NCBI GenBank assembly: GCA_013112545.1 | Contig: JABFGJ010000005.1 | Span: 1-64,000, forward strand | Origin: Bacteroidota bacterium | Lineage (GTDB): Bacteria > Bacteroidota > Bacteroidia > Flavobacteriales_E > Vicingaceae | Reading direction: 5' to 3' | DNA: 64,000 nucleotides | Shown: positions 4,168 through 48,200 of the stretch, piece by piece | Layout: every line of letters starts with the position of its first letter | Position numbering within the stretch: the stretch's first letter is position 1 | Program-made: the position numbers and the translations under genes | Notes under the pieces: model-generated | Told to the model about the DNA's origin: nothing | Seen by the model: the letters and a program-made list of their open reading frames with translations, nothing else | The model's database searches: none

Positions 4168-4275
4168 TTCATCTCTTTTGGGGTGCCTTTTTTACGAAAG
4201 TAAAATTAAAAACAGGCTGAGATTACACCCTTTGAACCTGATGCCGATAATGCGGACGCAGGGAGAAGAACAAGC
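4168..4275 (+). ncRNA. TPP (THI-box) riboswitch
   Basis: The conserved thiamine pyrophosphate aptamer is directly readable: GGGGTGCC at 4180-4187, GGCTGAGA at 4215-4222, then ACACCCTTTGAACCTGAT, GATAATGCGGACGCAGGGA. These are the P1/P2, J3/2 and P4/P5 elements that bind TPP. The outer stem can form between TCTC before the first block and GAGA after the last. A small hairpin AGCACA/TGTGCT (4273-4287) follows without a T run, so control may act on translation or on an alternative structure and not through a plain terminator. It sits about 80 bases before the TonB receptor start. Confidence 0.95.
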
Positions 4276-4353
4276 ACATTTTGTGCTACATAAATATATT
4301 TGTTTACACGAAAAATAACCCCAAGTTTTTCAATAATAGGTTAATTCATTATT

Positions 4354-41749: not shown

Positions 41750-44626
41750 TTATAGTTTTTGAGCTACTTCAACTTCTTCATAAGCTTCTACAATATCACC
41801 TACCTTAATGTCATTATAATTGGCAATATTCAAACCACATTCATAGCCCCTTGCAACTTCTTTTACGTCATCTTTAAAACGCTTCAATGATCCAAGTTCA
41901 CCTGTATAGACAACTACTCCATCGCGAATAACTCGAACTTTGTTCTTGCGATTTACTTTTCCGTCAGTTACCATACAACCTGCAATGGTTCCTACTTTAG
42001 AAATTTTAAACGTTTCTCTAATCTCAATCGTTGCAGTAACTTGCTCAACCACTTTTGGTTTCAACATGCCTTCCATGGCAGATTTTAACTCCTCAATTGC
42101 ATCGTAAATAATTGAATACAATCTAATGTCAATTTCTTCTTGTTCGGCTATTCTTCTTGCATTTACAGATGGCCTTACTTGGAATCCAATCACAATTGCA
42201 TCGGATGCAGCAGCTAGCATAATGTCTGATTCAGAAATTTGTCCAACTGATTTGTGAATTATATTCACTTGGATTTGCTCAGTAGATAACTTCAATAAGG
42301 AGTCTGAAAGTGCTTCAATAGAACCATCCACATCACCTTTCACAATAACGTTTAATTCTTGGAAATCACCAATTGCTATACGTCTTCCAATTTCATCAAG
42401 CGTAATGTGTTTTTTAACTCTTGACCCTTGTTCACGTTGTAATTGTAATCTTTTTGTTGCAATATTTCTAGCCTCACGTTCATCATCCATGATGTTAAAG
42501 CGATCGCCAGCATTGGGTGCACCGCTTAAACCAAGAACAGAAACTGGAATAGAAGGTCCTGCCTCATCTACATCAACCCCTCTTTCATTAAACATTGCTT
42601 TCACACGACCACTATGAGGTCCTGCAAGAATAACATCTCCAACACGCATCGTTCCCGATTGAACAATTAAGGTAGAAACATATCCTCGACCTTTATCTAA
42701 TTCCGACTCGATAACAACACCTTTAGCGTTTTTATTTGGGTTCGCTTTCAATTCTAAGACTTCAGCTTCAAGCAATACTTTTTCTAATAAATCTGGAATT
42801 CCTTGTCCAGTTTTAGCTGAAACCTCCTGACTTTGGAATTTTCCTCCCCACTCTTCAACTAAAATATCCATTTGAGATAATTCTTCTCTTAGTTTATCAG
42901 GGTTGGCTGCTGGTCTATCAATCTTATTAAATGCAAATACGATTGGCACTCCAGCTGCTTGAGCGTGGTTAATAGCCTCTTTAGTTTGCGGCATCACATT
43001 ATCGTCAGCAGCAATTACAACAATTACAACATCAGTCACTTGCGCTCCACGTGCTCTCATGGCCGTAAAGGCTTCGTGACCAGGAGTATCTAAGAAAGTA
43101 ATGTTTTTGCCATTTTTAAGACCTACATTATATGCTCCAATGTGTTGTGTAATTCCACCTGCTTCGCCAGCTATCACGTTTGCTTCACGAATATAATCCA
43201 ACAAGGATGTTTTACCGTGGTCAACGTGACCCATAACGGTAACAATTGGATATCTTTCAACTAAATCTTCAGGTTTGTCTTCAACTTCTAGAACATCATT
43301 TTGAGATTCAGGTTTAATAAATTCTAATTCAAATCCAAATTCTTCGGCAACAATACTAAGTGTTTCGGCATCCAATCTTTGGTTAATAGAAACAAACAAA
43401 CCTAGTGACATACAAGCAGAAATGACTTCATTTACACTTACGCTCATCATACTTGCCAATTCATTAGCAGTAACAAATTCTGTTACCTTTAGTATGCTTT
43501 TTTGTAATTCTGCTTCTTCTGCTTCTTGCTGTGCAATATCGGCAGCAGCATCTCTTTTTTGTCTTCTGTATTTAGAACCTTTAGATTTTCCACCTCCACC
43601 GGTCAATCGAGCCAAGGTTTCCTTTATTTGTTCTTGAATCTGTTTATCAGTTAATTCAGCTTTTTCTTCCTTCTTAACTGGTTTTTTTCCTCTTCCGGAA
43701 GCACCAGAACCACCTCTATTTGCTGAGCCTGCTCCAGGTTTTGGTTCAATAATACGCTTGCGTTTGCGTTTTGGTTTTTGGGTATCCTTGCTTTCAGATG
43801 AAGAAGCCACAGGTTTCTTAGGTTTCTCAACTGGTATTTCAATTTTACCTAGCACTTTTACACCCGATAATTTTTCAATCTTAGTAACGTGTTCTTGACG
43901 CTCAGCTGGTTTGTCAGCAAGTGGTTTTTCAACCTTAGTCGCTTCTTTTTCAGCTTCTGCTTCAGCCTCAGCAGCTGCTTTTGATTTTGCTTTTTCGGCC
44001 TCAATTTTTGCAGCAGCTTTTGCTTTTTCATCAGCAGCTTTTTTATCAGCAGCGGCTTTATCTTTTTTCGCTTTTTCAGCAGCTCCAGATTTAGATTTCT
44101 TGTCAGGTCTTGTTTTTAGATTTAAAGAATCTAAATCTATTTTACCTACAACTCTAACTTTTCCATCTGCAATTTCTTCGGCAGGTTCAATTCTTGGGGA
44201 CTCTTGTTTAGCAACAACAGGCTTCTCTTCTTTTTCTTCGGACTTCGTTTCTTCCTTAGGTTCAGTAGGGGATTCAACTGGTTTTTCAACCTTAGATTTT
44301 GGCTCTGGCTTTACCTCAGGTTCAGTGTCAGCCGGAATATTTTTAATTAAAATACTATCTTCCTCTTCTGTAGATTTTACAGAAGGTGCTGGAGCTTCAA
44401 TCGAAACACTTTCTCGATCGGTAGAAGGCATACTTACATTCTTTGATTCTTCTTTTGCACTTTTTTCAGATTGAAATTCTGCACTCAAAAGATCATAAAT
44501 ATCAGCTTCTATTTTGGTGTTAGGCTTAGCGTCAATCTCTACCCCTTTTCCACTTAAAAAGTCAACGATAGTACTAATCCCAACATTCAGCTCTTTAGCA
44601 ACTTTACTTAGTCTTTGCACGGCCAT
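41750..44626 (-). CDS. infB: Translation initiation factor IF-2
   Basis: This GTPase delivers initiator tRNA to the 30S subunit. The 958-residue length is large because of a long N-terminal charged region (about residues 60-350) rich in E, K, A and P. The IF2 N-terminal domain opens it ([24 protein letters not shown]). The G domain shows [37 protein letters not shown] and NKIDRP near residues 465-580. Domains II, III and C2 follow to the end. It is the last gene of rimP-nusA-infB. Confidence 0.98.
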
Positions 44627-44677: not shown

Positions 44678-45919
44678 TTATTCAAACTCTGCTTTAAATA
44701 TATTTCTAATCTCTCGAATTGTCTCTTCTTCTAAATCTGTTCTTTTTAACAGCTCTTCTTCTGACAATTCTAAAACATTTTTTGCAGTATCACAACCGAT
44801 ACCTTTTAATTCGTCAATTATCCAATCTTCAATTTCGTCTGCAAACTCATCTAAAGCAACGTCATCCTCAACGTCGTTTCCTTTATCTTCTCTATAAACA
44901 TCTATTTCATAGCCAGTTAATTTACCAGCCAACTTAATGTTATGCCCACCTCTACCAATTGCTAATGAAACTTGGTCGGGCGACAAGAATACCTCAGCCT
45001 TACCTGTTTCTTCATTAATGGTTATCGAAGATACTTTTGCAGGGCTTAAAGCTCTTGTTATATATAATTGAATATTGTTTGTGTAATTAATTACGTCTAT
45101 GTTTTCATTTCGTAACTCACGAACAATACCGTGGATTCGAGAACCTTTCATACCAACACAAGCACCTACAGGGTCAATACGATCATCATAGGATTCTACA
45201 GCCACTTTTGCTCTTTCTCCTGGTTCTCTAACGATGTTTTTAATGGTAATTAAACCATCGAAAATTTCTGGCACTTCCATCTCGAAAAGTCTTTCCAAGA
45301 AAACTGGTGAGGTCCTCGAAAGTGTAATCAAAGGTTTGTTGTTTCTCATTTCAACCTTTTTTACAACTGCTCTAATGTTATCTCCTTTTTTGAAATAATC
45401 ATTTGGAATTTGCTCTGTTTTTGGTAGAATTAACTCATTGCTTTCATCATCTAAAATTAACAATTCTCTTTTCCATACCTGATAAACTTCACCTGTGATA
45501 ATATCACCAACTCGGTCTTCGTATTTTTTAAAGATATTGTCTTTTTCTAATTCCAATACTTTAGAAATCAAATTCTGACGCAAAGCCAAAACTGCCCTTC
45601 TTCCAAAGTCATTTAATTTCACTTCTTCAGAAGCTTCCTCACCTACTTCAAAATCTGGTTCAATTTTAATTGCTTCAGATAAAGCAATCTGACTATTTTC
45701 ATCTTCTACTTGATCATCTTCAACAATCTCGCGGTTTCTCCAAACCTCTAAATCTCCTTTATCAATATTTAATATAATATCGAAATTTTCGTCAGAACCA
45801 TATTTCTTAATAATCATATTTCGGAAAACGCTTTCCAAAATATTCATCATAGTAGGACGGTCAATGTCCTTAAACTCTTTAAACTCTGCAAATGACTCAG
45901 TTAAATTAATCTTATCCAT
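44678..45919 (-). CDS. nusA: Transcription termination/antitermination factor NusA
   Basis: The 413-residue protein has the NusA N-terminal RNA polymerase-binding domain, an S1 domain (VGDIITGEVYQVWKRELLILDDESNELILPKTEQIP) and two KH domains. One KH contains DPVGACVGMKGSRIHGIVRELRNENIDVINY; the other contains SLAIGRGGHNIKLAGKLTGYEIDVY. A short acidic C-terminal helical region ends it (LEEETIREIRNIFKAEFE). It binds nascent RNA and modulates pausing and hairpin-dependent termination. It starts 5 bases after rimP, and the operon leader holds a terminator-like hairpin that NusA itself could influence. Confidence 0.97.
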   Translation of the reverse strand: MDKINLTESFAEFKEFKDIDRPTMMNILESVFRNMIIKKYGSDENFDIILNIDKGDLEVWRNREIVEDDQVEDENSQIALSEAIKIEPDFEVGEEASEEVKLNDFGRRAVLALRQNLISKVLELEKDNIFKKYEDRVGDIITGEVYQVWKRELLILDDESNELILPKTEQIPNDYFKKGDNIRAVVKKVEMRNNKPLITLSRTSPVFLERLFEMEVPEIFDGLITIKNIVREPGERAKVAVESYDDRIDPVGACVGMKGSRIHGIVRELRNENIDVINYTNNIQLYITRALSPAKVSSITINEETGKAEVFLSPDQVSLAIGRGGHNIKLAGKLTGYEIDVYREDKGNDVEDDVALDEFADEIEDWIIDELKGIGCDTAKNVLELSEEELLKRTDLEEETIREIRNIFKAEFE

Positions 45920-45924
45920 TTTTT

Positions 45925-46392
45925 CTATTTGAAAGATATTACCACTTTAGTTTCTTTTATTTCATTCATCGGAATATGCTTATTCTCAATAATTGTTTCC
46001 TTTTTTTTCTTACCCTCTATTCGCTCTTTTCTACTTGTTTCAAGTACAATTTCATCTTCATTAGCAGACAATAACTTGCCCTGTAACTTATTCCCGCTAT
46101 TCGTTTTTACAGTAACTTCTCTGTTTAAATAGCGTTGGTATTGTCTTAAAATCTTAAAAGGTTGATCCATACCAGCTGAGCTAACAGTCAACTCAAAATC
46201 TTCTTGCTCTCTATCTAAACTTCCTTCTATGTGTCGGCTTATTTCTACGCAGTCTGCTATATTAACCCCTTGATCACCATCGATTTCTACACGAATAGAG
46301 TTTGATGAACTCACATTTACATCAACAATAAAATAGGGCATTTCTTTAATTTTCTGCTCTACTAAACCTCGAATGTATTTTTGTGAAATCAT
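45925..46392 (-). CDS. rimP: Ribosome maturation factor RimP
   Basis: The 155-residue protein has the two RimP domains. The first contains FIVDVNVSSSNSIRVEIDGDQGVNIADCVEISRHIEGSLD (residues 21-60) and LTVSSAGMDQPFKILRQYQRYLNREVTV, the family's S-S-P-G-like motif being SSAGMDQP here. The second is the Sm-like C-terminal domain. It binds the 30S subunit during assembly. It is the first gene of rimP-nusA-infB, the standard bacterial order. Confidence 0.95.
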   Translation of the reverse strand: MISQKYIRGLVEQKIKEMPYFIVDVNVSSSNSIRVEIDGDQGVNIADCVEISRHIEGSLDREQEDFELTVSSAGMDQPFKILRQYQRYLNREVTVKTNSGNKLQGKLLSANEDEIVLETSRKERIEGKKKKETIIENKHIPMNEIKETKVVISFK

Positions 46393-46414
46393 ACTTAAAT
46401 CTAACTTATAAAAA

Positions 46415-46434
46415 GAGGGGACTTTTGTCCCCTC
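46415..46434 (-). terminator. Terminator-like hairpin in the rimP-nusA-infB leader (possible attenuator)
   Basis: GAGGGGAC and GTCCCCTC form an 8-base-pair GC-rich stem with a four-base loop. On the minus strand it is followed by TTTTTATAAG, 22 bases before the rimP ATG. A promoter-like element lies upstream of it, so the hairpin can be read either as the end of the YwqK transcript or as an attenuator in the operon leader. Confidence 0.75.
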
Positions 46435-46457
46435 AATATTTAAATCCTCAAATTCAA

Positions 46458-46470
46458 TGCAAAAGTAATA
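46458..46470 (-). promoter_or_regulatory. Putative -7 promoter element of rimP-nusA-infB (TATTACTTTTGCA)
   Basis: The minus strand reads TATTACTTTTGCA, a strong form of the Bacteroidota TAnnTTTGC element. It is placed so that transcription starts before the hairpin at 46415-46434. Confidence 0.6.
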
Positions 46471-46490: not shown

Positions 46491-48200
46491 CTATTCACTT
46501 TGTTTTACTCCATTTTTAAACTTAATCTCTCTTATTAATTCCCCTTCTTTTTTCCCATAAAACTTAAATGTCCCTGTAGGAACCCCTTCTTTATAAAACT
46601 TTTCGCTTTCAAGAGTGCCCACATCATACCACGAACTAACCTTGCCGTTTAAGCGTCCTTCAAGGTAGGTTGACTCCATCATTTTATTCCCCCTTTCGTA
46701 GTAATAGATCCAAAGTCCATCTTGTTTCCCCATTTTAAACGAACCTTCATCTCTCAATTTCCCATTGGCATACCAGCTTTTTCTAGGGCCATTTAATACT
46801 CCATCTAGATAATTTTCCTCCAACTCTTTAGCTCCTCTCTCATTCCAATAAATCCATTGCCCATTCTTTAAGCCAGCTTTATAAGCTCCTTGATATCTGG
46901 TTTGCCCAGTTTGATAATAACCCAACCAATCGCCATCCATTTTACCTAAAAGATATGTCCCTTCATCTTGTTGATTTCCATCAGCGTAATATGTAAACCA
47001 GCGGCCATCTTCCTGGCCTTTTAAGTAACTTCCTTTGATAATGACGTTTCCGTTTTCATGCCAAGTTTGCCACAAACCACTTTTTAAGTCATTCACAAAC
47101 TCCCCTGACTTCCATATACTGCCATCTTCATAATAATAATTCCAAACTCCAACTCGTTTATCTTCTTTAAATGAGCCCTTAGAAATCACTTGGGTTGTGT
47201 CTTCATAATAATATTTCCATTCACCAGACTGCTTTCCATGCAAGAAATCTCCTTGCATTTCCATTGCTCCACTTTCTAAATAAAACTTCCATTCCCCAAT
47301 TTTCTCTCCATCTAAGTATTTTCCTTCCTCGGCTAATTTCCCATTTTCAAACCATTGCTTATAGTCTCCACTTAGCAACCCATTGTTATAAAACTCTTCC
47401 TGGCTTTTCTTTCCTGATTCAAAAAAATAGTTCCATTGACCAGCTTTTTTATTGTTAGCATAAGCACCTTCCCACAAGAGCTGGCCTTTTTCATTATATA
47501 AAGCCCAAACTCCGTTTGCAAGGCCATTTTTATAATTTTGGACAGACTTTATTTGCCCTTTTTCATCCCATTCTTGCCATTTGCCATTAGGCTTGCCAGC
47601 TAAATATTCTCCAGCCAATATTTTAATCCCATTTTTAGAATATTCTTCAAACTTTCCATTTCCATCACTGAGAAGTTCTGCACCCGTTCGACTGTAAAAG
47701 CTCAATATTTTTTCTCCATCTTCTTGGTATTCTATTTGCTTTTGAACCTGTCCGTTTTCATACCAAAATTTCCATATACTACTGCGTTCATCTTTTTCAT
47801 AAGGGCCTTGCATTTTTTTATTTCCATTTTCATAAAATGAAGTCCAAACACTATCTTTAAGTCCCAATTTATAAAAACCTGTCAATTGCAGCTTTCCATT
47901 TTCATAATATGTTTTAAATGCTTGATCTCGAACCGCATTTTTGAAAATCCCCTCCTCTGTTAACACTCCATCTTCCGAGAAATTTTGGTAAGGCCCATTA
48001 AATTGACCAAAGGAATAATTCACAATTTGAACAAGTATGCCTTTCTGATTGTAGAACTTCCACTCTCCTTCTTCTATACCCCCTTGAACAATTTTGCCTT
48101 CCGCTTTTATCTTACCATTAGGCCATTTATATTCAGCTTGTTGAGCAAAAATATTGGTAAACGAGAACAATAGTGCTAGAAAAAATAAACGATTTATCAT
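46491..48200 (-). CDS. Large exported MORN/YwqK-type repeat protein
   Basis: The 569-residue protein has a signal peptide (MINRLFFLALLFSFTNIFAQQ) and then about 22 tandem repeats of roughly 23 residues. The pattern is G-x-W-x-x-Y-Y-x-x-G-x-x-x-x-x-G-x-Y-x-x-G-x-x-x-G; examples are GEWKYYYEDTTQVISKGSF and GVWNYYYEDGSIWKSGEFV. Databases call such proteins YwqK-family antitoxins, but a signal peptide and the length argue for a surface or periplasmic binding protein. No toxin partner is adjacent. Repeats this regular can expand and contract. Confidence 0.8.
   Translation of the reverse strand: MINRLFFLALLFSFTNIFAQQAEYKWPNGKIKAEGKIVQGGIEEGEWKFYNQKGILVQIVNYSFGQFNGPYQNFSEDGVLTEEGIFKNAVRDQAFKTYYENGKLQLTGFYKLGLKDSVWTSFYENGNKKMQGPYEKDERSSIWKFWYENGQVQKQIEYQEDGEKILSFYSRTGAELLSDGNGKFEEYSKNGIKILAGEYLAGKPNGKWQEWDEKGQIKSVQNYKNGLANGVWALYNEKGQLLWEGAYANNKKAGQWNYFFESGKKSQEEFYNNGLLSGDYKQWFENGKLAEEGKYLDGEKIGEWKFYLESGAMEMQGDFLHGKQSGEWKYYYEDTTQVISKGSFKEDKRVGVWNYYYEDGSIWKSGEFVNDLKSGLWQTWHENGNVIIKGSYLKGQEDGRWFTYYADGNQQDEGTYLLGKMDGDWLGYYQTGQTRYQGAYKAGLKNGQWIYWNERGAKELEENYLDGVLNGPRKSWYANGKLRDEGSFKMGKQDGLWIYYYERGNKMMESTYLEGRLNGKVSSWYDVGTLESEKFYKEGVPTGTFKFYGKKEGELIREIKFKNGVKQSE

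Follow-up and report, generated by a model that had tools for sequence, protein, structure and literature searches.

Organization of the rimP-nusA-infB leader

The window, that is, the whole 64-kb stretch of DNA that was analyzed, carries on its minus strand a rimP-nusA-infB operon composed of rimP (45925..46392; Pfam RimP_N and RimP C-terminal SH3 domain), nusA (44678..45919; Pfam NusA_N, S1, and KH domains), and infB, which encodes the translation initiation factor IF-2 (41750..44626; Pfam). A YwqK-type gene with Pfam MORN_2 repeats (46491..48200) lies upstream, outside the operon and on the same strand, and its stop is located 57 nt ahead of a hairpin that precedes rimP. This terminator hairpin, GAGGGGAC-AAAA-GTCCCCTC (46415..46434, read on the minus strand like all parts of the leader), has arms at 46434–46427 and 46422–46415 that form eight perfect pairs, six of them G-C, and is supported by sequence, folding, a window scan, conservation, and covariation. 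The T-tract TTTTTATA (46414–46407) follows directly on its 3' side, corresponding to the U-tract UUUUUAUA (46407..46414) with a distal interruption common to its family, and 22 nt separate the stem from the rimP ATG (46392–46390).

Direct reading of the minus strand ahead of the hairpin reveals a promoter-like sequence, TATTACTTTTGCA (46470–46458), containing the −7 box TACTTTTG (46460..46467), which agrees at every defined position with the TAnnTTTG consensus of Bacteroidota −7 boxes (PMC7366714, PMC9723704). The preliminary description had reported a promoter-like sequence at 46458–46470, an 8-bp GC hairpin with a T run downstream of it at 46415–46434, and a rimP ATG within 22 bases of the hairpin; the promoter-like sequence and the distance to the ATG are confirmed, and the hairpin is confirmed base for base. 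Inspection by eye gave no clear −33 element at the promoter, and an E. coli sigma-70 site was rejected because the box (46467–46460) is absent from the output of a sigma-70 scan. In F. psychrophilum, the −7 box is placed at −12 to −5 (PMC9723704), and by analogy the transcription start is predicted near 46455. The rimP 5' UTR would then measure about 63 nt, with an unstructured linker of about 21 nt (46435..46455) and a hairpin spanning approximately +22 to +41.

The leader region folds at −24 kcal/mol, compared with −13 kcal/mol for shuffled sequences (z = −4.2). When both strands of the window were scanned for at least eight perfect pairs, at least six G-C pairs, and at least five T, the rimP-leader hairpin was the sole site in the whole 64 kb, and five dinucleotide-shuffled windows yielded none of this stringency. 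On the plus strand, the window also carries a TPP riboswitch (4169–4281; 65.7 bits, Rfam RF00059).

Conservation of the leader hairpin in Bacteroidia

Of 100 related genomes, 89 yielded a RimP, and 88 upstream regions, from the same family and class, were read. The hairpin search required a G-rich 5' arm and at least four T, so that G-richness and T content are partly built into its outcome, whereas position, promoter, and covariation are not. A hairpin with a T-rich tract is present just ahead of rimP at 84 of the 88 loci, and the 8 nt after the stem are 79% T in these 84 leaders, T being a selection criterion. The strict TAnnTTTG box occurs in 83 of the 84, ahead of the G core by 14–34 nt with a median of 27; when the upstream sequences were shuffled, an average of 2.1 and at most 8 had it at the matching place. 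A second TAnnTTTG between stem and rimP is found at none of the 84 loci. In a second set of 80 loci, taken from named records and overlapping in part with the genomes of the first set, 69 carry the G-rich hairpin, F. johnsoniae (L264) among them, and 66 the promoter box as well. Four Flavobacterium loci (L252, L269, L270, and L271) have the stem GAGGCACGC...GCGTGCCTC in place of GGGGAC while the hairpin position, the T-tract, and the promoter box are kept. Judged from these sequences, the leader element seems nearly universal in the sampled class Bacteroidia, yet it is missed by the Rfam model: RF01770 (rimP; gathering 47 bits) gave no match at the site, at the gathering threshold or at E up to 5, and its search of the whole genome returned only weak matches, all away from the rimP leader site.

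Base pairing of the stem is under selection. Among 68 aligned hairpins, 95.9% of the pair cells hold standard pairs and 26 cells show changes on both sides, compared with 4.7 in shuffles, none of the 500 shuffles reaching the observed value; all slid versions of the stem alignment are worse than the true register. The clearest compensatory change converts GAGGGGAC/GTCCCCTC to GAGGGAAC/GTTCCCTC. The same data bear on a rival reading in which a dimeric repressor binds the perfect inverted repeat (about +22 to +41) as DNA, the repeat serving as its operator shortly after the promoter. Between loci, the loop ranges from 3 to 7 in length, so that the half-sites would be turned relative to each other, and it is for this variation that the operator was rejected; G-U pairs, paired changes, and the trailing T-tract also speak against it, leaving it a negligible probability.

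The leader comparison also bears on the second option of the preliminary description, in which the hairpin is merely the 3' terminator of the YwqK-type gene and plays no role in the rimP leader. The orientation of that gene and the short distance from its stop to the hairpin agree with this option, and the gene may well use the rimP-leader hairpin as a terminator too. At 23 of the 84 loci, however, the longest open frame upstream of the leader runs divergently, with at least 100 codons at 21 of them, and Pfam confirmed three of the five divergent upstream genes examined (an MscS channel, MTHFR, and DUF3109); at ten loci, a second, separate hairpin and its T run precede the rimP promoter. Since the element is kept where the upstream gene differs, appears to be divergent (about a quarter of loci), or has its own terminator, and since the promoter box precedes the hairpin at 83 of 84 loci, a role confined to the YwqK-type gene is quite improbable, although the hairpin of the window may additionally end YwqK transcripts. 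The comparison among relatives that had been suggested as a check thus favors the leader attenuator that was put forward at the outset, with promoter, hairpin, T-tract, and rimP conserved as a unit at 83 of the 88 class loci.

The 3.27-Mb genome of the window has a single occurrence of the exact motif GGGGACN3-7GTCCCCTNTT, at rimP, and the majority of its exact matches across 60 genomes are at rimP; GGGG is present in the 5' arm of 67 of the 84 rimP leaders, compared with 0 of 45 gene-end terminators from the family of the window. The matches of the covariance model that were inspected away from rimP in relatives are weaker than those at rimP and correspond to gene-end terminators, mostly between convergent genes. 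None of these inspected matches revealed another operon with the same leader, TAnnTTTG lying nearby in only 1 of 20. As the other matches are ordinary gene-end terminators, the form of the hairpin is that of a genuine terminator, set in an unusual place. Lying no more than 22 nt from the rimP start and close to where the mRNA is predicted to begin, the hairpin might instead protect or regulate the mRNA 5' end, through stability or translation start, but given these gene-end matches and the T-rich tract after the stem, even with its T content partly selected, we regard such a function as highly improbable.

Probable premature termination and the candidate role of NusA

The promoter box, the hairpin, the T-rich tract, and rimP follow one another with conserved order and spacing. 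We consider that they probably act within the 5' leader of rimP-nusA-infB as an intrinsic terminator that stops transcription prematurely and is stimulated by NusA, perhaps together with NusG. Transcripts from the TAnnTTTG promoter would begin about 20 nt ahead of the hairpin, so that each of them would have to pass the hairpin and its U-tract. Part of the transcripts would stop after about 46 nt, while the remainder would read into rimP. By raising the stopping at the leader hairpin, NusA (perhaps with NusG) in excess would lower its own operon, and a shortage of NusA would raise it; neither an antiterminator RNA nor a leader peptide would be needed. The linker between the predicted start and the stem is, class-wide, 6.5% C and 67% purine, and the linker plus 5' arm has a median fold energy of 0. 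It offers only short complements to either hairpin arm, with no competing structure visible, and a leader peptide was discarded as a candidate, a closed ATG frame of at least four codons being present in only five leaders. A leader this short, C-poor, and poorly folding makes a classical antiterminator or leader peptide unlikely. A terminator dosed by a protein is the simplest reading, and NusA, the best candidate, is the most likely factor.

Two characterized operons support this candidate. The NusA of B. subtilis is reported to autoregulate via NusA-stimulated termination in its own leader, in an account that cites Mondal et al. 2016 (PMC12288461). As in the B. subtilis nusA operon described there, an intrinsic terminator lies in the leader of the operon encoding NusA, here between that operon and a promoter recognized by consensus and conservation; at about 180 nt (PMC2965389), the leader in B. 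subtilis is longer than the 63 nt or so predicted here. In the E. coli metY-rimP-nusA-infB operon, the terminators t1 and t2 are likewise located between the promoter and rimP, NusA-dependent termination in the leader lowers the operon, and a reduction of NusA termination brings more transcript (PMC6511841); unlike the present leader, where no tRNA is found, that of E. coli has a tRNA gene along with the two terminators before rimP. Literature evidence of leader RNA comes from a relative, F. psychrophilum, in which an expressed, structured 5' element was reported at rimP with no Rfam hit (PMC9723704); for NusA dependence, no such evidence turned up from any of the Bacteroidota.

Two features fit a NusA-dosed terminator less well. 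The perfect 8-bp GC-rich hairpin looks strong, whereas NusA-dependent terminators of B. subtilis are often suboptimal (PMC8060035), and a transcript of just 46 nt or so would end unusually early. In the family of the window, position 6 of the U-tract is interrupted in 19 of 22 distinct tails, mostly by A and also by G or C, compared with 10 of 45 gene-end sites, and position 7 is T in 22 of 22. The interrupted U-tract resembles NusA-dependent terminators (PMC8060035), which we take as a hint only. As a potential NusA signature, the distal interruption is strong in this family but absent from the rimP leaders of other families, and it possibly reflects shared ancestry.

The leader attenuator could also be dosed by another signal, such as NusG, RimP, the ribosome-assembly state, or the growth rate, or act as a fixed brake on the level of the operon. 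In B. subtilis, NusG likewise enhances termination at many intrinsic sites (PMC8060035), feedback by RimP was deemed possible by Naville & Gautheret (PMC2965389), and the part given to NusA in the factor dependence of this leader is one that we infer. Control by NusA is, however, the mechanism reported for the operon in the B. subtilis account (PMC12288461) and fits the E. coli data (PMC6511841), so that dosing by another signal, or by none, appears rather unlikely. Under the preferred reading of a NusA-stimulated terminator, the known self-limiting circuit, in which NusA terminates its own operon early, would extend to Bacteroidota. With about 46 nt to the stop and neither an antiterminator nor a leader peptide, such a compact leader would also provide a clean system in which to examine how intrinsic termination depends on protein factors in bacteria other than E. 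coli and B. subtilis.

Known rimP leaders and stem variation across Bacteroidota

The rimP-leader was described by Naville & Gautheret in 2010 as the most ubiquitous transcription attenuator (PMC2965389); Bacteroidota are not named in the main text of that study. The element described here shares with it the gene and the operon, a G-rich 5' arm and a C-rich 3' arm, a T-stretch after a hairpin located 4–130 nt from rimP (22 nt from stem to ATG in this case), the lack of a visible antiterminator, and a stem motif that is not seen at gene-end terminators. It differs in its stem, where GAGGGGAC/GTCCCCTC, i.e., GGGGAC...GTCCCC, is close to the literal GGGc/gCCC motif without being identical to it, and in being tied to the TAnnTTTG promoter at a narrow distance. 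By most of the defining features, the leader is very probably the Bacteroidia form of the published rimP-leader. The rimP 5' element of F. psychrophilum comes from the same phylum and precedes the same gene, likewise without an Rfam hit; the main text of that study gives no details of what it does or of its sequence (PMC9723704), and it is likely the same element.

Outside the class Bacteroidia, a polarity-neutral scan of the 150 nt before rimP for a hairpin of −8 kcal/mol or below adjoining a T run retrieved such a hairpin at 38 of 43 rimP loci, compared with 7 of 60 shuffles. The stem letters vary by clade: several families have GTGGG...CCCAC, while families f55, f57, f60, f71, and f75 show the inverse polarity CCCG...CGGG, with a C-rich 5' arm and a G-rich 3' arm (e.g., L127, L131, L146, and L151, within the range L127–L152). 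These inverse-polarity hairpins are often followed by TATTTTTT or ATTTTT, not by an unbroken T run. A CCCg...cGGG motif has been described for the extra upstream terminator that some Gammaproteobacteria have, and recognition of the stem motif by a protein has been argued for (Naville & Gautheret, PMC2965389). A strict sequence-recognition model is weakened by the replacement of the stem letters, seen both inside the genus Flavobacterium and from class to class, though the strong stem conservation inside Bacteroidia still asks for an explanation. We tentatively consider a phylum-wide promoter-proximal rimP hairpin whose stem is replaced clade by clade, up to inversion of its polarity; what is sensed might then be structure and timing, not the protein-recognized stem motif proposed in 2010. 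The most interesting loose end of this analysis is that the stem shifts in both letters and polarity within the phylum.

Within Bacteroidales, two leaders (L202 and L205) carry a tRNA-like sequence between a TAnnTTTG box and the rimP hairpin, an arrangement that resembles E. coli metY-rimP; judged by eye, this sequence looks like tRNA-Gln.
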